Virus record (IMG/VR): IMGVR_UViG_3300007234_000148 | Location: 1 to 20,389 of that record | Strand: one strand, 5' to 3' | From: a virus | DNA length: 20,389 bases | Shown: one piece after another, positions 1-20,136 of the stretch | Layout of the letters: each line of letters starts with the position of its first letter | Position numbering within the stretch: the first letter of the stretch is position 1 | Notes under the pieces: model-generated | Seen by the model: only the letters and a program-made list of their open reading frames with translations | Told to the model about the DNA's origin: nothing | Database searches by the model: none | Position numbers and translations under genes: made by a program

Positions 1-692
1 TAACCGTAGCAATTCAGGAGTTAAAGAAAGGTCTTGAAGAATTAGTGAATCCTGTAAATCAAATTGTGGGCGCAGCAAACGCTATTGGTGATTCATTCGC
101 CCAGTCATTCAAAAGTGTTATTGACGGCAGCGCGACAGCGCAAGAAGCATTAGCTGGATTCTTCAGAAATATTGCGAGTTACTTCCTTGATATGGCAGTG
201 CAGATCATTCAGAAGATGATCACGATGTATATCTTGAACACCGTTGTTGGGTTGCTGCCTGGTAGTGGCTCGGCTCCTAGCTTCGGGAGTGGAGTTGGCT
301 CACTGCCGCTTTCTGGTGACTACAGCGGCCTCTCAGGTACTCCATTCGCGAAAGGTGGAGTATTCGCCAAGAACAAGATCGTGCCTTATGCCAAAGGCGG
401 CATCGTCAATAAGCCCACGATGTTTGCCTACGCCAACGGTGGTACTGGCAGGTTCGGGCTCATGGGTGAAGCTGGTCCTGAGGCTATTCTTCCCTTACGA
501 CGCGGTCCAGGCGGCAAGTTAGGTGTTCAGGCTTCTGGCGGTGGTGGCGTTTCAGTTGGTAACATAAATATTACAGTTGAGAACAAAGGCGATCAATTGA
601 ATCCTGCAGCACAAAAGCAGCTAGCCGGTCAGGTTCAAGGTATCGTGTTATCAACGCTGGCGAATGAGCGCCGTAGCGGAGGAATGCTCTAA
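1..692 (+). CDS. Tail tape-measure protein, C-terminal part (lambda gpH-like), cut by left edge
   Basis: The frame is open from base 3 to the TAA at 690-692, so this is the 3' end of a gene that starts outside the window; the GTG at 45 is only an internal codon. Family knowledge: tape-measure proteins set tail length and fill the tail tube. What supports this is the C-terminal style: a hydrophobic/amphipathic stretch (ASYFLDMAVQIIQKMITMYI), then glycine-rich sequence with AKGG motifs, and the motif GLMGEAGPEAILPLRRG, which is typical of the end of lambda gpH-like tape measures. It is followed by a gpM-like gene whose ATG overlaps this stop by one base (TAATG), the standard order in lambda-type tails. 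The long coiled-coil part that would confirm the call is not in the window. Confidence 0.88.
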   Translation, partial: TVAIQELKKGLEELVNPVNQIVGAANAIGDSFAQSFKSVIDGSATAQEALAGFFRNIASYFLDMAVQIIQKMITMYILNTVVGLLPGSGSAPSFGSGVGSLPLSGDYSGLSGTPFAKGGVFAKNKIVPYAKGGIVNKPTMFAYANGGTGRFGLMGEAGPEAILPLRRGPGGKLGVQASGGGGVSVGNINITVENKGDQLNPAAQKQLAGQVQGIVLSTLANERRSGGML

Positions 693-2643: not shown

Positions 2644-3293
2644 TGGTTACCATCCGGTTATTAGGAGAAGCTGGTCGGCGTTATGGACGCAGGTTTCAGC
2701 TTGCTGTGAAGACACCTGCTGAGGCTTTAAGGGCACTGTGCTTGCAGATCCCTGGGCTTAGACAGTATTTGCTGGAGTCAGGTGAAAAGGGGGTCGATTG
2801 GCGCGTTGTAACTGATCATGCGGAAGGGCTTGATGAAGATCAGATGTTGTGGCCGCTGAGTAAGCGGATGGTGTTAGCTCCATTGCCTGCCGGTCGTGGT
2901 GGAGTGGGCAAGATTGTTGCTGGCGTGGCATTGGTTGCTGTAGCAGTTTTATTTGCGCCTGCCGGTTTACTGGCTGGATCCGTGTTTGGTTTCACTCTTG
3001 GTTCCTCGGCAGCCATGGCTGTTGGCGCAATCGGCGCTTCACTGATCTTTGGTGGCGTAGCAGACCTGTTAACACCAACGCCCAAGATGCCCAATGTTAA
3101 AGGCGGTGGCCTGGGTGGCGGGTCGAGTTCAACATCAGGTCGGGATAGGGATGAACAACTGAACAGCTTTGCCTTTGATAAGTCGAACGCGAATACAGTG
3201 CAAGGAGACGTGGTTCCTGTTCTTTACGGTGAGCGCATCATTGGCGCTTTGCCTGTTCTGAGCTTTGGCCTTGAATTGCAGAATTACTTGTGA
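2643..3293 (+). CDS. Tail assembly protein, lambda gpI-like
   Basis: A 216-residue protein of normal gpI length. The N-terminal ubiquitin-like region reads VTIRLLGEAGRRYGRRFQL, followed by AEALRALCLQIPGLRQYL, both typical of the lambda tail assembly protein I family. The middle (about residues 88-145) is a long glycine/alanine-rich hydrophobic stretch with two membrane-like segments, also usual for the family. The C-terminal part is GGGSSSTSGRDRDEQLNSF and then a beta segment with VVPVLYGERIIGA, which often precedes gpJ. Coupled on both sides: ATG overlaps the upstream TAA, and its TGA overlaps the gpJ-like ATG at 3293. Role is in tail tip assembly; exact action is not known. Confidence 0.9.
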   Translation: MVTIRLLGEAGRRYGRRFQLAVKTPAEALRALCLQIPGLRQYLLESGEKGVDWRVVTDHAEGLDEDQMLWPLSKRMVLAPLPAGRGGVGKIVAGVALVAVAVLFAPAGLLAGSVFGFTLGSSAAMAVGAIGASLIFGGVADLLTPTPKMPNVKGGGLGGGSSSTSGRDRDEQLNSFAFDKSNANTVQGDVVPVLYGERIIGALPVLSFGLELQNYL

Positions 3294-6200
3294 TGGACGA
3301 TCAAACCCAAGTGAACAACCTAGAGGTCAGTGGTGCTGGCGGTGGTGGCGGTGGTCGCAGTACCCCTCCGACAAAACAGGTTGTCAATCAGACAGTTGTT
3401 GTTCAGAATCCATCAAGACAGCCAGTCGTTGAAGCTAATAACTTATTTTCAGTTGCATTTGCGAAAACAGTTTATGCGCTAAGCGAAGGTGTCCTTGAAG
3501 GCTTTCCTAATGGCATCAATAAGGACGTTTACCTTGACGGCGTTCCAATTCAAAATCCTAATGGGAAAAATAATTTTGAGGGTTTTACGCTTAAGTCAAG
3601 GCTAGGCGAAGACGAAACACAAACACCTATTAAAGGATTTAGTACAACTGAGAATACTGTTGGCGTCAATGTAAACGTCACGCAGGCTTCTGGTGCGATT
3701 ACAAGGGCAATTACAGATACGGACACAGAGCGTTGCCGGGTAATCATTGCCTTACCTTCTTTGCAGGCTCAAAACGAAAGCAACGGAGACATCTCTGGCA
3801 CAAGCGTTCAATTTAAGATCCAGGTCAATTCAAACGGTGGCAGTTATACAACTATCTCTTCGCCCACCATTAGCGGAAAATCAAACAGCGAGTTTCAACG
3901 CGCTTATGAGTTTGACCTACCTGGCACAGGCCCTTGGAACGTGCGACTTACAAGACTGACATCTGACAGTAGTAGTAGTTTTATTCAGAACACAATTAAT
4001 TGGCAGAGCTTTGTCGAAATTATTGATGAAAAGTTCGCTTATCCAAATACCGGCCTTGTCGCGCTAAAGGTTGATGCAAGGCAGTTCAACACGATCCCTG
4101 ATGTATCAGTCAAGCTTCGCGGTAAGCGTGTTCAGGTTCCTACCAATTATGACGCTGCAACTCGTACCTACACGGGGTTGTGGGACGGAACGTTTCAGAT
4201 GGCATGGACCGATAACCCTGCTTGGATCTTCCGTGACATCGTTCTAAACGAACGCTTTGGCGTCAAACGTTATATCAATTCTATTGCGATTGACCCTTGG
4301 TATCTTTACACCGTTTCTCAGTATTGTGATGAACTTGTGCCGTCTGGCAGTGGTGGAACGGAGCCTCGTTTCACTTGCAACGTTTACTTGCAAAATCCAG
4401 GCTCGGTCTATCAGGTTCTTAATTCACTGGCCTCTTGTTTCCGGGGTCTTATTTATTACAGCGAAGGTGAGCTGTATTTAACGCAGGACCGAGAGCAAGA
4501 CGTAGTTCAGCAATTTAGCGAAGCCAATGTTATTCAAGATGTAGGCGAAGACGGAAAGGTCTCGTCACCATGTTTTAGCTATACGGGTTCGGCCAGGGCA
4601 GCACGTAAGACCGTAGTTTTAGCAAACTGGGATGATCCAAATCAAGTTTATTCAAGCGTCACAGAGTACCAGCAAGATGATGAGCTACTGGACAAGCTTG
4701 GGTATAACCCTGTTGATCTTCGCTTGATTGGCGTTACCTCTCGCGGTCAAGCTTTACGTGCTGCCAAGCATACGCTTTTCAGTGACAGGTATGAAACAGA
4801 AAAGGTTAGTTTCCGCATTGGAGCGGAAGGCATTGCGGCTGGCGTTGGCGAGATTATTAAAATTGCTGACCCATTAAAGCAAGGTCAACGTTTAGGCGGT
4901 CGCATCGTAGCTGTTGACGGAAACTTTATTACAGTCGATGCAGTCTTAACGTTATCGCCTGGAACTGACTACACGTTGACTGTTGTAATCCCTGAAGGGG
5001 AGACGGTTACCAACAATGATGGCTCGACAAAAGTAAATCCAAAGCTAGAGGTTTTAACTGTTGTCAGCTCTAGCGATATTGGCTTTCAAACTTTTGACGA
5101 GGGTAATATTTTGACCGAGGACTCGGACGAAGTAATAACGCAAAGTGCTGATAATTTAATCGCTCGATATGCTTCAAGCGACGCAACTACAACTATGTTT
5201 GAAGTGAGTTCAGCGGTGCCAACACAGGTCGGCGCTTTATGGGTGCTTGAGTGGACATCGATGAAGGCTGCGACTTATCGGATCATCTCAATATCAGAAG
5301 TTGAGTCTTTGATTTATCAAGTTGAAGCTATTCAATACAACAGCAGCAAATATGATTACGTTGACAACGATTTGCCCGTAGCGATACCAAAGGATCGCTT
5401 TACCCTTCAGCCCGTTGGTGTGCCAGCAAGCGTTGGCGCAATTCTTGTTTATTCAAATGGTCAAACATCAATTCTGGCCTCATGGCGTGCTCCTCAAGTA
5501 AATAATTCAATTGATCTTTTAGTAAGGGGTTACAGGTATCAGTGGAGAAAGGTTGATGACACGGAGTGGTCAAGCATTGCTGCATTGCAAGCAACAGCAG
5601 TCGAAATACCTCTTTCGACTCACACTTTCGGCAATGCGTATCAAGTTCGCGTTTCTTCTGTAAATCGTTTAGGCAGTCAGTCTGACTGGGTTGTTTATGA
5701 CGTTGATCCCTTTGATCCTATTCCTGATTTGAGTGATGTTGCTTTTGGGGCAACGGTTACGCACGCCAATCAACCAGATGGCACTCAATTAATCATCGTT
5801 GATCCTGGTACATGCCCGATTTTGCCTCGAATTAGTGGTTTTAAATGCTGGGTCAAACCTAGAAACCTTTCTTCTGGCGAAATTCCTGGAGTCAAGCCGC
5901 CTAACGATGATGGCTGGTATTTCTTGGCAGACATACCTTTAACTGGTTACTACACCGTTGCGTTCCATGCTCCAGATACTTACGACGTTCGCGTTAATTT
6001 TACGAGTTCAATTTTTGGCGAAAGTCCAAGTGATTACATTTATGACTTTGTGGAGCGCGGCGAAATTGCGCCTCCCACTCCAAGCAACTTTAGTGTTGTT
6101 GAAAATCAAAACAGTAGTGGCAAGCGTTTTAGCTGGCAATTACCCACGACAGAGTATGGCAGTTGGGACCAAGGTCTTGTTGCTGATGTCGTGAGTTACG

Positions 6201-7678
6201 AAGTCAGGTATAAAAACGGAAATATTGCCTTAAATATTATTGGGTTTGATGTTCAGACCGATCTTGTAACAGTAAAAACAGCAACGGTTATCGGTACTCG
6301 CGTCAATCAACACTTGTTAGATGTTGGTGATGAAATTGTGTTCGCCGCATCATCCGGCACGCTGCCTACTGGGATTTCTGACGGGGTAACTTACTACGTC
6401 GCAAGCGATGGCTTTACAAGTACAGCATTTAAAGTTAGCGCAACAAATGGCGGGGCGGCTATTAATTTTAGCGGAACTGCTAACGGCACTTATAACGTCG
6501 CTGGGCCAGCGGATTTAAAAACTCGACTAGACATTACTGCTAGCTGGGGGGCTGGGATAGAACTTGCCTCGGGTGGCTTGCCTGCTCAACAGCAATGGTT
6601 TGAAACTAGCTTGTTCGATGTAGATCGTTACGTTGTGATGGTCAAGTCAGTTGATGCAACGCAATGGCGTGCAGATATTCCGGCGTATGTGTTGGTAAAT
6701 ATTGGCGCTCCTCCAATTAGCAACGCAGTTCAATCAATTGATGCTAAAAATGCGCCAACCAACAACTGGCCTGGAGCCTATGACAACTGCTCTGTTGTCG
6801 GTGGCAGCATCGTTCAAACAGATCCAACATTGGACTCTTATTTTACCTGGAATTTTGACAATAATAATCTTGAAAGCGCATTGCTTCTGTCTACGACGGC
6901 AACAGCAACATATTCTCATTCGCTAGTAGCCTTAACAGGTGAAGCGACTGAAATAGCGCAAGAAAATGATTTTAATGTTTTGCAAGAAGACAAGCCTCTT
7001 GTGATAGATGTTTCTAATAACAATTTCTCAATTCAAAGAAACGGAATCACTGTTGAACATAACTTAAATCTCAACGACACTTTAGAATTTGTCGCTGTTT
7101 CTGGATCTCTCCCCACGGGAATATCAGCAAGCACTCTTTACTATGTGGTATCCACTGACCTAACGCTTACGACATTTCGAGTTGCTTCCAGTCAGGGTGG
7201 TACTGCAATAGTTCTGACCGGTTCTGCGTCTGGAACTTATGCGGCTTATGGATTCAAAATATTAGGCGAGCAGAGATATTACGATCTCAATGAGCTAACA
7301 GAAGGCGGTATTGTTCACCCTTATGCCCCATATGAAAAACTTCTTGGCGACGTGTATCGCGTTGAGACTCGCTTTAAAAGCCCTGACGGTGGGACGACTG
7401 CTGGCAACATCACGGCATTAACGGCTCAGCTTGACTATCCCGACGTGATCGAGAAGCAAAACGATGTTTCAATTTCTAACGTTGGAACGGCAGTAGCGTT
7501 GACCAAAACATTCCGAGCGGTTTCAAGCGTTTCGATTACAGCTCTTCAGACAGGTGGAAGCACTGCTGTTACGGCTGTCGTTACGGCTAAAACCACCAGC
7601 TCCGTTACTATTAAGTGTCTGGACTCCAGCGGGACCGGGGTCACTGGCCTTGTTGACATCACAGTAATTGGTTACTAA
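3293..7678 (+). CDS. Central tail hub / host specificity protein, lambda gpJ-like
   Basis: A 1461-residue protein, larger than lambda gpJ (about 1130). I chose ATG 3293, which overlaps the gpI stop as TGATG; a GTG directly upstream (3290) is also in frame. The N-terminal hub has a Gly-rich start and ALSEGVLEGFPNG followed by DGVPIQNPNGKNNFEG, as in gpJ. Around residues 308-415 lies the tail-tip hub domain (NPAWIFRDIVLNERFG, FRGLIYYSEGELYLTQDR). Fibronectin type III-like domains follow from about 705 and 925. Two copies of a ~65-residue LPTGI..YYV..FKVS module sit near 1002-1070 and 1252-1319. The C-terminal ~80 residues are Thr/Val/Ser-rich and are likely the receptor-contacting tip. In lambda gpJ forms the trimeric tip and sets host specificity. 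Stop TAA overlaps the next ATG. Confidence 0.92.
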   Translation: MDDQTQVNNLEVSGAGGGGGGRSTPPTKQVVNQTVVVQNPSRQPVVEANNLFSVAFAKTVYALSEGVLEGFPNGINKDVYLDGVPIQNPNGKNNFEGFTLKSRLGEDETQTPIKGFSTTENTVGVNVNVTQASGAITRAITDTDTERCRVIIALPSLQAQNESNGDISGTSVQFKIQVNSNGGSYTTISSPTISGKSNSEFQRAYEFDLPGTGPWNVRLTRLTSDSSSSFIQNTINWQSFVEIIDEKFAYPNTGLVALKVDARQFNTIPDVSVKLRGKRVQVPTNYDAATRTYTGLWDGTFQMAWTDNPAWIFRDIVLNERFGVKRYINSIAIDPWYLYTVSQYCDELVPSGSGGTEPRFTCNVYLQNPGSVYQVLNSLASCFRGLIYYSEGELYLTQDREQDVVQQFSEANVIQDVGEDGKVSSPCFSYTGSARAARKTVVLANWDDPNQVYSSVTEYQQDDELLDKLGYNPVDLRLIGVTSRGQALRAAKHTLFSDRYETEKVSFRIGAEGIAAGVGEIIKIADPLKQGQRLGGRIVAVDGNFITVDAVLTLSPGTDYTLTVVIPEGETVTNNDGSTKVNPKLEVLTVVSSSDIGFQTFDEGNILTEDSDEVITQSADNLIARYASSDATTTMFEVSSAVPTQVGALWVLEWTSMKAATYRIISISEVESLIYQVEAIQYNSSKYDYVDNDLPVAIPKDRFTLQPVGVPASVGAILVYSNGQTSILASWRAPQVNNSIDLLVRGYRYQWRKVDDTEWSSIAALQATAVEIPLSTHTFGNAYQVRVSSVNRLGSQSDWVVYDVDPFDPIPDLSDVAFGATVTHANQPDGTQLIIVDPGTCPILPRISGFKCWVKPRNLSSGEIPGVKPPNDDGWYFLADIPLTGYYTVAFHAPDTYDVRVNFTSSIFGESPSDYIYDFVERGEIAPPTPSNFSVVENQNSSGKRFSWQLPTTEYGSWDQGLVADVVSYEVRYKNGNIALNIIGFDVQTDLVTVKTATVIGTRVNQHLLDVGDEIVFAASSGTLPTGISDGVTYYVASDGFTSTAFKVSATNGGAAINFSGTANGTYNVAGPADLKTRLDITASWGAGIELASGGLPAQQQWFETSLFDVDRYVVMVKSVDATQWRADIPAYVLVNIGAPPISNAVQSIDAKNAPTNNWPGAYDNCSVVGGSIVQTDPTLDSYFTWNFDNNNLESALLLSTTATATYSHSLVALTGEATEIAQENDFNVLQEDKPLVIDVSNNNFSIQRNGITVEHNLNLNDTLEFVAVSGSLPTGISASTLYYVVSTDLTLTTFRVASSQGGTAIVLTGSASGTYAAYGFKILGEQRYYDLNELTEGGIVHPYAPYEKLLGDVYRVETRFKSPDGGTTAGNITALTAQLDYPDVIEKQNDVSISNVGTAVALTKTFRAVSSVSITALQTGGSTAVTAVVTAKTTSSVTIKCLDSSGTGVTGLVDITVIGY
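6298..6504 (+). repeat. LPTGI/YYV module, copy 1 (in gpJ-like protein)
   Basis: This codes for about 65 residues with the pattern H-x-L, D-x-[VL]-x-F, LPTG[IV], YYV, T-x-FKVS, GG-x-I, G-[ST]-A-x-GTY. The same pattern recurs at about 7048-7251 in the same gene and about 12800-13010 in the beta-helix fibre. Identity is at protein level; the DNA has diverged. Confidence 0.75.
7048..7251 (+). repeat. LPTGI/YYV module, copy 2 (in gpJ-like protein)
   Basis: Second copy of the ~65-residue module, reading EHNLNLNDTLEF, SLPTGISASTLYYVV, TTFRVASSQGG and GSASGTY. It lies about 185 residues downstream of copy 1's end, close to the C-terminal tip of the hub protein. Confidence 0.75.
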
Positions 7679-17215: not shown

Positions 17216-17491
17216 GTGATTGAAATTTACGCAGCAATCCTAGGCGCCTCTATCGGCATAGCTGGGATGAGTGTCTCCGGGTTTACTAGGCGAACCAGCG
17301 AAAGCCGTGAAGCGGTTATTCGCCTCACGGCGGGCGTCGAATCCATTGCAACCAAACTTGAAGATCTTCATCAAGACATGAAGGCAGAAAAAGTTCAAGC
17401 CAATGCTGATCGCCGTGAAATTTACGAACGGCTGAATGATCATGGCAACCGAATAACTGTTTTAGAAACCACCAAGGCTAGAATCGACTAA
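17216..17491 (+). CDS. Small membrane protein with coiled coil, possible lysis protein (91 aa)
   Basis: GTG 17216 is chosen because the strong ribosome site ggaaggag (17198-17205) lies about ten bases upstream. The N-terminal segment IYAAILGASIGIAGMSVSGF is a likely membrane helix, then a basic turn (TRRTSESREA) and a charged helix, AVIRLTAGVESIATKLEDLH, DMKAEKVQANADRREIYERL, ending NDHGNRITVLETTKARID. The helix-plus-coiled-coil layout resembles, in reversed order, XhlA-type lysis proteins and also phage spanin-like or adaptor proteins. It sits next to the holin-like gene and endolysin. Role in lysis is inferred; a short spanin is another possibility, but no lipobox is seen. Confidence 0.6.
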   Translation: MIEIYAAILGASIGIAGMSVSGFTRRTSESREAVIRLTAGVESIATKLEDLHQDMKAEKVQANADRREIYERLNDHGNRITVLETTKARID

Positions 17492-17508: not shown

Positions 17509-17661
17509 ATGAACATCGAAGAAGTCTTGGCGCATCCTGCTTTTTGGATTGTGGTAGCAGCAGCATCTGAACTGATTGGTATGTCGCCAAAGCTGCGTGA
17601 AAATTCCCTGCTGCAACTTTTGTTTACAGCACTTCGTTCCCTGAAAGCAAAAAAGGACTGA
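17509..17661 (+). CDS. Small membrane, holin-like protein (50 aa), with a slippery site at its end
   Basis: ATG 17509 follows the 91-residue gene by 17 bases, with aaagg (17497-17501) as ribosome site. The 50-residue product starts MNIEEVLAHPAFWIVVAAAS, has a short hydrophobic segment (FWIVVAAASELIGM) and a second amphipathic one (LLQLLFTALRSL), and ends with the basic KAKKD. From memory it resembles short cyanophage proteins of the type HPxFWxxxAxxSExIG. Position just before the endolysin suggests a holin or lysis-associated membrane protein (inference). Its last codons are gcA AAA AAG GAC TGA, a classic -1 slippery sequence that could extend it into the next ORF to a 123-residue form. Confidence 0.65.
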   Translation: MNIEEVLAHPAFWIVVAAASELIGMSPKLRENSLLQLLFTALRSLKAKKD

Positions 17662-17678
17662 TCCCTGCTGACGGCAGG
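17649..17678 (+). promoter_or_regulatory. Candidate -1 programmed frameshift signal (A AAA AAG plus stem-loop)
   Basis: The heptamer aaaaaag at 17649-17655 is read in the zero frame as A AAA AAG, the most efficient bacterial -1 slippery sequence (as in dnaX and IS911). The zero-frame stop follows one codon later. After an eight-base spacer a small stem (cctgc/gcagg, 17664-17668 with 17674-17678, loop tgacg) could stimulate shifting. The -1 frame is exactly that of the next ORF. No upstream ribosome-like stimulator is seen. Confidence 0.5.
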
Positions 17679-17879
17679 TGGTTGTTTCAGTTCTCAACTC
17701 GATCACCCTTCGAGGCGCTAAAGCGCGAAATCCAGCGTCGCAAATTCGAGGCAACACTAAAGCCTCGGATTGACGCTGAGGTTGAACGCTGGCACAAATC
17801 ACAGCCACCAGCAATGCCGCCACCTGAGCGGATAGGCGACCTACACATAAAATCACCCTGGAGCAATGACGAACAGTAA
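17655..17879 (+). CDS. ORF without ATG/GTG start, likely reached by -1 frameshift (or TTG at 17682)
   Basis: This frame is open from 17601 to TAA 17877-17879 but has no ATG or GTG; the only usual start is TTG 17682 with a poorly spaced AGG three bases upstream. Translated from the slippery site it adds GLIPADGRWLFQF, then FEALKREIQRRKFEATLKPR, a basic helix, then DAEVERWHKSQPPAMPPPER, a helix running into proline-rich sequence, and ends SPWSNDEQ (74 codons). From TTG it is a 65-residue cytosolic protein. It overlaps the endolysin start by 14 bases. The protein-like sequence suggests it is translated. Function unknown; if fused to the holin-like protein it would give it a cytosolic, positively charged tail. 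Confidence 0.6.
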   Translation, partial: GLIPADGRWLFQFSTRSPFEALKREIQRRKFEATLKPRIDAEVERWHKSQPPAMPPPERIGDLHIKSPWSNDEQ

Positions 17880-18939
17880 GGCAATCTCACTCGAACAGCT
17901 TTTTAGGTACTACAAAGGCTTGCCACATCAAGCCGCAAGTATTTCGCTTCTAGAAGAAGATCTAGCAAGTAATGGTTACGACGCAGCGATGCGACGTGAC
18001 CGTGAATGGTTTGCGACTTGGAGTCAATCAGGTAAGCAATCTGATCACAAGCAAGCATTAGACCTGATTAAAAAGTTTGAAGGATGGCACGCCGAGGCAT
18101 ACCTGTGCCCCGCAGGGTTTTGGACGATTGGATGGGGCGATCTGTCGCATCCAGATGGTCGCCCCGTAAGAGAAGGCGACTGGATCAGAAGGAAAGAAGG
18201 CGATGCTTTACTGGAAGGCACAGTAGACAAAATTGACGACAAGCTTTCTCAGACCGTTCCTTACTGGTCAGAAATGGCGGAGAATCAGCAGGCAGCATTG
18301 ATCAGCTTCGCCTACAACCTTGGCTCTGGATTCTATGGCTCTGAAGGTTTTGAGACAATCAGCCAAAAGCTTCGTGCGAAAGACTGGAAAGCTGTTCCTG
18401 ACGCGATGCTGCTCTATCGAAACCCTGGGAGCAGCTTTGAAGCCGGTCTAAAGCGTCGAAGGCAAGCCGAGGGAAACCTCTGGAAAGGTGGCGATCAATC
18501 ACCGCCTACTGAGACTGCCAAGTTACGGCCTGGGTCTCCATTCACCAGTCGGCTGACCCCACACATCACTCTGGGTGAGTTTGCTCTAAATCAAGAAGAG
18601 CGCAGATTCAACGAGCAGCACCAGCTAGACACCGCAGCCACTCTCGCGGCATTTTTAGAGCGTGTTCGTGGAAGGTTTGGGGGCAAGCCAGTAGTAATCA
18701 CATCTGGCTACAGACCACCAGCCATAAACAGATCGGTTGGCGGCGCTAGCGGGTCAGAGCACCTGTACCCGGCACCGGGAGTGGGTGCTGTGGATTTTTG
18801 TGTGCAAGGCGCTGACATTTTTGCGGTACAAGAATGGTGTGACCAAAACTGGCCGCATAGCTTAGGATATGGGGCCAATAAAGGATTCGTTCATCTCGGT
18901 ATGCGAGAAGACGGTCCAAGAATACGCTGGGACTACTGA
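17866..18939 (+). CDS. Bifunctional endolysin: GH24 lysozyme plus M15 peptidase (357 aa)
   Basis: A three-part protein. Residues 1-60 (ISLEQLFRYYKGLPHQAASI, AMRRDREWFATWSQSGKQSD) form an unassigned region, seen by memory at the start of cyanophage lysins and possibly wall-binding. Residues 62-206 are a phage-type lysozyme (GH24): E72 in KKFEGWHAEAYL, C81 and T87 (CPAGFWTIGWGD) fit the E-8aa-[D/C]-5aa-T triad, followed by ENQQAALISFAYNLGSG. Residues 230-357 are an M15_3-type carboxypeptidase/endopeptidase with TSGYRPPAINRSVGGASGSE, zinc ligands probably H299 and D310 (SEHLYPAPGVGAVDF) and H343 (GFVHLGM). It would cut both glycan and peptide bonds. No signal peptide or SAR helix is visible, so a holin is needed. 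A GGAG two bases before ATG is unusually close. Confidence 0.9.
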   Translation: MTNSKAISLEQLFRYYKGLPHQAASISLLEEDLASNGYDAAMRRDREWFATWSQSGKQSDHKQALDLIKKFEGWHAEAYLCPAGFWTIGWGDLSHPDGRPVREGDWIRRKEGDALLEGTVDKIDDKLSQTVPYWSEMAENQQAALISFAYNLGSGFYGSEGFETISQKLRAKDWKAVPDAMLLYRNPGSSFEAGLKRRRQAEGNLWKGGDQSPPTETAKLRPGSPFTSRLTPHITLGEFALNQEERRFNEQHQLDTAATLAAFLERVRGRFGGKPVVITSGYRPPAINRSVGGASGSEHLYPAPGVGAVDFCVQGADIFAVQEWCDQNWPHSLGYGANKGFVHLGMREDGPRIRWDY

Positions 18940-18940
18940 A

Positions 18941-19459
18941 ATGACTGTGCTTTGCGACTGGGAAATTAAATCGCTTTGCTACGGCGGAGCAATGGAAGAC
19001 TGGTCTGAAGATCTAATCAACCCGGCCTCGCTTGATGTGAGACTGGGCAGTGGGCTGATGATTGAAGTCGCTGGGCAAAAAGACCTGCTCCATGTTGACA
19101 TCTCGAACAGAACTGAAAAGAACCCTTATCGATTAACCCCCGGAGAGTTCTGTCTTGCTGAGACGCATGAAACGTTTAAAAAAATACCTGATCACATTTG
19201 TGCTCAGTTTGCATTGAAGTCAAGTAGGGCTAGGGAGGGATTCACACACGCCCTGAGCGGGTGGATCGATCCAGGGTACTGCAATAGCAAACTAACTCTT
19301 GAGCTTACAAACGTAAGGCGTCATTGCGATCTACCGTTATACCCTGGCCTAAAAATAGGACAAATTATATTTATCAGGATGAGCGAGGTTCCTCTAAACA
19401 GTTACTCGAAAACTGGTCGTTATAACGGTGATGCAACGGTCCAAGGCAGTAAAGGTTAA
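18941..19459 (+). CDS. dCTP deaminase-like protein (172 aa)
   Basis: I chose ATG 18941, one base after the endolysin stop, since an upstream in-frame extension (from 18869) would lie entirely over the endolysin and is not protein-like. The 172-residue product has DLINPASLDVRLGSGLMIEV near the start, SSRAREGFTHALSGWIDPGY in the middle with S94/S95 and R98, LTLELTN with the likely catalytic E121, a PGLKIGQIIF strand, and a C-terminus YNGDATVQGSKG that resembles the nucleotide-closing tail of Dcd. Family knowledge: Dcd deaminates dCTP to dUTP for dTTP synthesis; members may also be dUTPases. Slightly shorter than E. coli Dcd (193). The match is by motif only. Confidence 0.82.
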   Translation: MTVLCDWEIKSLCYGGAMEDWSEDLINPASLDVRLGSGLMIEVAGQKDLLHVDISNRTEKNPYRLTPGEFCLAETHETFKKIPDHICAQFALKSSRAREGFTHALSGWIDPGYCNSKLTLELTNVRRHCDLPLYPGLKIGQIIFIRMSEVPLNSYSKTGRYNGDATVQGSKG

Positions 19460-19617
19460 AGCAGACCACTTGGCTAGCATTAGTAAGCCTGATACCGGCA
19501 GTAGTGGTAGCTGAGTTTAGGCAGTGTCGGAGAAGCAGTCTATGCCGAGAGTATTTGCCTACCTCGGAGATGACCCACGGAAAAAACGGATGGTTTTGTG
19601 ATCCTCGAAGGTGCCCC
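19460..19617. other. Gap between dCTP deaminase and HNH gene (158 bases)
   Basis: I see no tRNA or clear terminator. It holds a 19-codon ORF (19542-19601, MPRVFAYLGDDPRKKRMVL) without a good ribosome site. A different frame reads DGFVILEGAP and ends at the TGA overlapping the HNH ATG (ATGA). The two look like pieces of one short gene broken at the six-A run (19582-19587), but this is weak. Confidence 0.3.
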
Positions 19618-20136
19618 ATGAGAGCATCCGAAAATGGTGCTTCTTATCAAGTCGAAAAACGCTACCTAACAACTGCGACAATTATGTTTCTGACCTCAGC
19701 AAAGGAAGATCAGGAACCTGAAGAGTTTAGTGAGATATTTGCATCACGATTAGAGGAGCTAACAGAGGAAATAGTAAGTTTTGAAATGGAAGTAGTGCCT
19801 CTAAGCGGCGGATTTATTGGCCATGAAATAATAGGATCAGAGCTTGTACCAAAGAAAACAAGTAAGCACAGGTTCAGGCGTCAAATACTTGATGAATGGG
19901 ACAATAGATGTGCTTACTGCGGCCAACCCGGAGATACCTTGGATCACATCCTTGCTAGATCGAAAGGTGGCAGTATGAGCGTTGTAAACAATCTTTTGTG
20001 TTGCTGTAGGTTTTGCAACGGATCAAAAAGTGACAAGGCAGTATGGGAGTGGTTTAGGGCACAGCCTTTCTGGAGCCAAGAGCGTGAAGATCTGATTAAT
20101 TATTGGATGGAGCATGGAACTTTGGATCAGCCATAG
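19618..20136 (+). CDS. HNH endonuclease (172 aa)
   Basis: I chose ATG 19618 because AAGG (19605-19608) lies upstream at a good distance; an upstream GTG (19504) would add a non-conserved leader. Residues 1-80 are a charged, mostly helical segment of unknown role (EDQEPEEFSEIFASRLEELT). Residues 83-140 hold the HNH domain: CAYC (C98, C101), DH (D109, H110) in TLDHILARSKGG, N124/N125, and CRFCNGSK (C130, C133). This two-CxxC HNH type binds a structural zinc and a catalytic metal. The C-terminal end (AVWEWFRAQPFWSQEREDL) is helical. Such HNH enzymes are often free-standing phage endonucleases, including ones near packaging genes; which applies here cannot be told. Confidence 0.86.
   Translation: MRASENGASYQVEKRYLTTATIMFLTSAKEDQEPEEFSEIFASRLEELTEEIVSFEMEVVPLSGGFIGHEIIGSELVPKKTSKHRFRRQILDEWDNRCAYCGQPGDTLDHILARSKGGSMSVVNNLLCCCRFCNGSKSDKAVWEWFRAQPFWSQEREDLINYWMEHGTLDQP

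Follow-up and report, generated by a model that had tools for sequence, protein, structure and literature searches.

A conserved slip site suggests that many cyanophages produce two forms of one small membrane protein by -1 ribosomal frameshifting

In many viruses that infect marine and freshwater cyanobacteria, the gene for a small membrane protein appears to yield two products, because some ribosomes slip back one base. The example described here comes from a 20,389-base virus record, called the window below. Sequence comparison makes it almost certain that this locus uses programmed -1 ribosomal frameshifting, because a slippery heptamer is conserved, the tail encoded in the -1 frame is conserved and under selection, start codons for that tail are absent, and homologues without the heptamer lack the tail in 13 of 14 cases. 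The explanation that best covers the observations as a whole, and which is very probably correct, is that the slip yields two membrane isoforms with a likely role in the lysis cassette. Involvement in lysis, taken separately, is favoured with less assurance; it is likely because the endolysin gene follows the tail and overlaps it in most loci.

The window carries lambda-like tail genes, followed by small genes and then by a gene for a transmembrane (TM) and coiled-coil protein, the 50-codon gene of interest and the endolysin gene (Table 1). The nearest isolates to the window are the Synechococcus phages KBS-S-2A and S-CBS1, and its host is therefore probably Synechococcus. A homologue of the TM/coiled-coil protein is encoded directly upstream in 127 of the 197 loci compared below. 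Searched against PHROGs, the window's version shows weak, sub-threshold similarity to hemolysin (E 0.08) and to an Rz-like spanin (E 0.09), and it is a candidate lysis partner.

Table 1. Features of the window
Feature	Position	Strand	Description
Tape-measure protein	45-689		C-terminus
Minor tail proteins			After the tape-measure C-terminus, in the lambda-like tail gene set
Tail-tip protein	3290-7678		J homologue; fibres also present
TM/coiled-coil gene	17216..17491	+	Upstream neighbour; 91-aa protein with one N-terminal TM segment and a predicted coiled coil; phrog_26178 (function unknown)
Zero-frame gene	17509..17661	+	50-aa holin-like membrane protein; phrog_22542 (function unknown)
Slippery heptamer	17649..17655	+	A_AAA_AAG, in the slip phase X_XXY_YYZ
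Zero-frame stop	17659..17661	+	TGA, one sense codon past the heptamer
-1 frame tail	17655..17879	+	74 codons and TAA
Hairpin	17664..17678	+	CCTGC-TGACG-GCAGG; present here, not conserved
TGGAG	17859..17863	+	GGAG, a Shine-Dalgarno-like sequence ahead of the endolysin start, shares bases with the conserved Trp codon in the tail's [AS]PW motif
Endolysin	17866..18939	+	Phage_lysozyme and Peptidase_M15_3 domains
dCTP deaminase-like gene	18869-19459		Longest ORF overlaps the endolysin 3' end by 71 bases, in another frame
HNH endonuclease gene	19504-20136		Close to the contig end

The zero frame of the 50-codon gene, whose product is MNIEEVLAHPAFWIVVAAASELIGMSPKLRENSLLQLLFTALRSLKAKKD, ends in GCA AAA AAG GAC TGA. 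A preliminary description of the window had placed A_AAA_AAG in this frame, and rightly so, although three bases separate the heptamer from the stop rather than the four it gave. It had also pointed to a -1 frame that stays open to 17879 and has neither ATG nor GTG. The sequence agrees: this frame runs from stop to stop between 17601, upstream of the heptamer, and the TAA at 17877-17879, and its sole TTG is at 17682. Fusion at the heptamer would give a product of 49+74 = 123 residues (14.2 kDa, pI 9.7), next to a short form of 50 residues (5.6 kDa).

The proposed mechanism is as follows. Most ribosomes would read AAA AAG GAC TGA and make the 50-residue, single-TM, holin-like protein. On A_AAA_AAG, a fraction would move back by one base, so that they miss the stop and extend the chain by 74 residues. 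The resulting 123-residue isoform would have the same membrane part and a probably cytosolic tail, made up of a helix and then a flexible proline-rich stretch, with [IL]x[AS]PW at its end. The endolysin ATG begins 11 nt ahead of the TAA of the tail ORF. Shifted ribosomes would terminate that far past the endolysin start, and the shift and the synthesis of endolysin may therefore be coupled. The likeliest role would be to provide a fixed ratio of the two membrane isoforms, and possibly a dose of endolysin, in a cyanophage lysis cassette.

The heptamer by itself is unremarkable, since AAAAAAG is rarer in the window (two copies) than expected from shuffling (about seven). What stands above chance, judging from related sequences, is its conservation. 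A first scan of IMG/VR gave 80 loci, all of which (80/80) have NNA AAA AAG, one sense codon, a stop and a homologue of the tail in the -1 frame. With wider scans seeded with divergent isolates, 197 distinct loci were collected from IMG/VR and isolates, and these include both siphoviruses and podoviruses. A slippery heptamer is found at the exact position in 183 of the 197. The zero-frame stop comes 0 or 1 codon past it in every case (183/183), and the -1 tail is present in all 179 heptamer loci that could be read through. Across homologues, then, the heptamer and the -1 frame are conserved while start codons stay absent; neither a conserved ATG for the tail nor a disrupted heptamer with a lost frame relation was seen in the main family. 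The comparison supports the earlier proposal of a -1 frameshift with two products that have a membrane N-terminus in common.

Different loci use different heptamers. Counted over distinct sequences, which are not phylogenetically independent, A_AAA_AAG occurs 158 times, G_GGA_AAG 16-17 times, C_CCA_AAG four times and A_AAA_AAC once. The residues encoded there vary between KK, GK, PK and KN. Thus it is slipperiness that is kept and not the peptide. GGA AAG is preceded by CCG in 17/17 cases, and CCA AAG by TTC in 4/4. With the same dependence between loci, the first Lys codon of the slip site is AAA in 158/158 and the second codon is AAG in 178/179 (AAC once); elsewhere in the gene, Lys codons are AAG and AAA in the proportion 293 : 115. 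A tree of the short protein, poorly resolved with its 49 columns, has at least six changes among the site classes.

Natural controls are provided by the 14 homologues (of 197) without a heptamer, 13 of which have no related tail. These tail-less, heptamer-less loci (13 in all) are P60, S-CBP3 and the MedDCM-S37-C6 group. In the last of these, Lys-Lys is encoded as AAG AAA, which is not slippery. A locus from a MAG (L333) behaves in the same way as these controls. The single tailed exception, L207, keeps its tail behind the site G_AAA_AAG. L201, whose site is A_AAA_AAG, encodes exactly the same short protein. Among host genomes, only four MAG contigs matched, and these are likely misbinned phage.

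Substitution patterns indicate purifying selection on the tail, beginning with its first codons. For 60 pairs sharing no sequence, dN/dS in the -1 frame is 0.106 for codons 2-17 past the site and 0.155 overall, and the other frames of the same DNA give 1.35 and 2.25. The 179 tails are 47-103 residues long and have no TM segment. Several types can be told apart by their N-terminal part (LIPxDGRW..FSTRS, LISFGKPGW, LGKTWEQA, LxPNV..VTLF and VIAREAVDKALSDL). The C-terminal part is common to the types: most siphovirus types have a helix end of the form [DE]xWHxxQP, and 171/179 tails carry [AS]P[WF] close to the C-terminus. In the window, the order is a helix, a proline-rich stretch and a C-terminal LHIKSPW motif; the AlphaFold2 model of the tail likewise consists of a helix followed by coil (pLDDT 73). 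The tail had been described at first as basic and proline-rich. It is proline-rich, and slightly basic in the window (13 K/R vs 11 D/E), but the tails of the family are acidic, with a median pI of 5.6. An outer-membrane spanin of the Rz1 type was considered and rejected for want of a lipobox cysteine, Cys being present in 1/179 tails.

The end of the tail is also DNA that may serve the next gene. The Trp codon of the APW motif is often 4 or 7 nt ahead of the ATG of that gene. For instance, in TGGAGCAATG of the window, GGAG would serve as a ribosome-binding sequence for the endolysin. Part of the conservation of APW may be due to such overlap. S-EIV1 keeps APW despite having no same-strand gene downstream, so APW also counts as a protein motif.

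The short protein has a TM helix at about residues 10-25, a second helix at residues 33-48 and a positive C-flank, and its AlphaFold2 model has two main helices (pLDDT 88). Its net charge is -1.2 before the hydrophobic stretch and +4.1 after it. This suggests that the protein lies N-out/C-in and that the tail is cytosolic. As expected of a holin, the short protein is a small TM protein encoded beside an endolysin. Neither the short nor the long protein matches a Pfam family, and both match only PHROGs of unknown function. Homology to characterised holins was sought in Pfam, PHROGs and the PDB, and none was found; the PDB search by sequence gave no match, and a Foldseek search of BFVD with the short protein gave no usable match (best E 1.5).

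An endolysin homologue follows in 152/197 loci, and its start usually overlaps the tail end. More generally, in most loci the last 60 nt of the tail include the ATG of the next gene, commonly at 10-29 nt from the tail's stop. In the S-B28/7B11-B podoviruses, which are T7-like, a terminase small-subunit-like gene follows instead. In T7, the same place before the terminase small-subunit gene is taken by holin 17.5. S-EIV1 and the S-B28 group have no adjoining endolysin and nonetheless keep the tail, so that the lysis role is drawn from the context of the majority.

How the two isoforms would act can be pictured in more than one way. Tentatively, a holin and an antiholin may come from one gene: the short form would make the lesion and the long form restrain it (or the reverse), and slip frequency would time lysis. 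Such an arrangement fits a small TM protein that adjoins the endolysin in most loci and whose two forms have the TM part in common and differ by a C-terminal tail. It also fits the constant distance of 0-1 codon between site and stop, by which the end of the short form is fixed. The lack of homology to known holins speaks against it, as does the upstream TM/coiled-coil protein (phrog_26178), which could equally be the holin or the antiholin. That the isoforms oppose each other is a guess.

It is doubtful that the main purpose is to bring ribosomes to the endolysin start, with slip frequency setting the dose and the tail peptide being secondary, a reading that the preliminary description had not raised. 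The closeness of the next ATG to the tail end in most loci, the endolysin homologues of 152 loci and the GGAG just ahead of the endolysin ATG in the window would all suit this purpose. However, the tail is strongly selected at the protein level from its first codons, and it is kept without a downstream endolysin in S-EIV1 and the S-B28 group. Endolysin delivery is therefore a possible added role and hardly the sole one, and as an added role it is more probable than as the main one. A combined scheme, in which slippage sets lysis time, is rather improbable. A holin and a longer regulator would then be made in a ratio given by the heptamer, while slipped ribosomes feed the endolysin. If this were true, pore, brake and enzyme would all be metered by one slip site.

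It is very improbable that the tail is a separate gene, reached by termination and reinitiation at a non-standard start that overlaps the stop (CTG in nnCTGA). CTG or TTG does overlap TGA in many loci. In S-CBS2 (L329, 866-1356), a distant version, the tail homologue can even start at a GTG overlapping the stop (TAGTGA), as a coupled pair, and fusion is thus not the sole route to the tail. However, the stop is TAG in 42 loci and TAA in 21 (63/179), which leaves CTA, TTA or no start at that place, and the tail and its frame are still kept. Because these stops remove CTG and TTG, reinitiation fails to explain the family. Moreover, it needs neither a heptamer in slip phase nor swaps among slippery heptamers, and selection begins at the codons directly after the heptamer. 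A conserved start codon was sought in the 179 tails and none was found: the first ATG or GTG is scattered, and wholly absent in 8/179. Of all the loci, S-CBS2, a distant one, is alone in having the start near or overlapping the first stop that such a pair calls for. Slippage of the polymerase on the run of A during transcription can practically be dismissed: the common site does have six A, but the frame relation is the same at GGGAAAG and CCCAAAG sites, which have no long run, and A_AAA_AAA never occurs at the site, where the last codon is AAG or AAC in 179/179.

Programmed -1 frameshifting, the preferred reading, is commonly, though not necessarily, helped by stimulators in the RNA. The 5-bp stem-loop reported earlier is present in the window, where CCTGC/GCAGG folds as 6 bp, but it is weak (z -1.95 for a 30-nt fold and -1.37 for a 61-nt fold) and is not conserved. 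Applied to 45 sequences from the tail group to which the window belongs, RNAalifold found no conserved pairs; in 25 sequences of another tail group, it found a weak structure. Over 85 non-redundant loci, downstream folding has a z of -0.72, against -0.61 for a control 60 nt further on. With no shared pairs in the window group and z near the control, the hairpin gained no support as a conserved stimulator. An upstream Shine-Dalgarno stimulator gained none either, pairing with the anti-Shine-Dalgarno sequence being the same as in shuffled sequences. The zero-frame stop, 0-1 codon away, may help slipping by stalling the ribosome.

Relatives of the tail are found in other settings. T4-like cyanophages (L326, L328, L331) have a single-frame protein of ~130 aa, phrog_6464, encoded near UvsY or glutaredoxin and away from lysis genes. 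Its C-terminal region is common with the tail of the podovirus S-B28 (E 6.6e-4). The phrog_6464 protein is unannotated in MED4-213.

The same type of tail also occurs in the -1 frame behind another TM protein, phrog_9685 (NLTPTPKDN), in five loci (L336-L340, around 2001-2482). The junction there is TCA AAG GAC TGA or TCA AAG GAT TAA, which offers only A_AAG; in tailless members of phrog_9685, the base ahead of AAG is mostly T, C or G. One further ORF, read by eye, lies between the tail and an endolysin-like gene in L336. The tail module may have joined a second holin-like family in the -1 relation. As these loci seem to form a single lineage, they offer a lead and not proof. A relationship between the window family and the TPTPKDN family was unsupported, profile comparison giving it a probability of 1%. 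The TPTPKDN protein was also dropped as a known holin: isolates annotate it as hypothetical, and LUZ100 places the gene between capsid genes.

The locus is handled poorly in deposited genomes. Most of the tail is unannotated in KBS-S-2A, it is annotated as a truncated separate ORF in S-CBS1 and S-CBS3, and in S-EIV1 it is annotated in part and the short gene is not. That the frameshift is conserved in both siphoviruses and podoviruses points to a gene of the lysis cassette which annotation now splits, mis-starts or omits. It also suggests that start-less ORFs are worth seeking downstream of other genes for small phage membrane proteins. The time at which picocyanobacteria lyse affects the release of marine carbon, and yet few cyanophage holins have been identified.

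Several known systems resemble this one in part. The dnaX gene of E. coli has the same heptamer, A_AAA_AAG. There, an upstream Shine-Dalgarno sequence and a downstream hairpin stimulate the shift, and the shifted product is the shorter one. In the present family, the search for a conserved stimulator found none, the shifted product would be the longer one, and the zero-frame stop is 0-1 codon away. The heptamer is known to be highly shift-prone in E. coli (review PMC5009743).

The G/GT tail-assembly chaperones, whose -1 frameshift is conserved in tailed phages, are alike in that one gene gives, through a -1 slip, a short protein and a second one with an added C-terminal part; in phiCbK-like phages, the slip sites reported are AAAAAAC and GGGAAAC (PMC3556154). 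G/GT precedes the tape-measure gene, whereas the present site is ~17 kb past the tape-measure C-terminus, beside an endolysin, and its protein has a TM segment. On grounds of position (tape-measure C-terminus at 45-689, site at 17649), identity with G/GT was rejected. Extended isoforms made by frameshifting are thus already known in phages, and a list of frameshift genes includes lysins (PMC10885494). In the open-access papers searched, no earlier description was found of a frameshift in a holin-like gene or a cell-lysis cluster, and novelty is therefore provisional; the preliminary description knew of none in a lysis cassette of this type. Neither the S-LBS1 paper nor the KBS2A paper has the word 'frameshift' in its text.

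Expression of the MS2 lysis gene L is reported to be tied to a frame change or to termination in an overlapping gene (Kastelein 1982 and Berkhout 1987, as cited in later papers). MS2 L has no slippery heptamer and no fused product, whereas here the tail would be fused. The homologue in T7-like cyanophages resembles T7 17.5 in preceding a terminase small-subunit-like gene, but no sequence match was obtained between 17.5 and the window family. No frameshift is known in T7 gene 17.5. In lambda, S105 and S107 are again two isoforms of a single small membrane protein, encoded next to an endolysin. Those isoforms arise from two start codons and differ at the N-terminus, whereas the pair described here would arise by a -1 slip and differ at the C-terminus. 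It would add dual isoforms by -1 slippage to the known ways in which phages regulate lysis.
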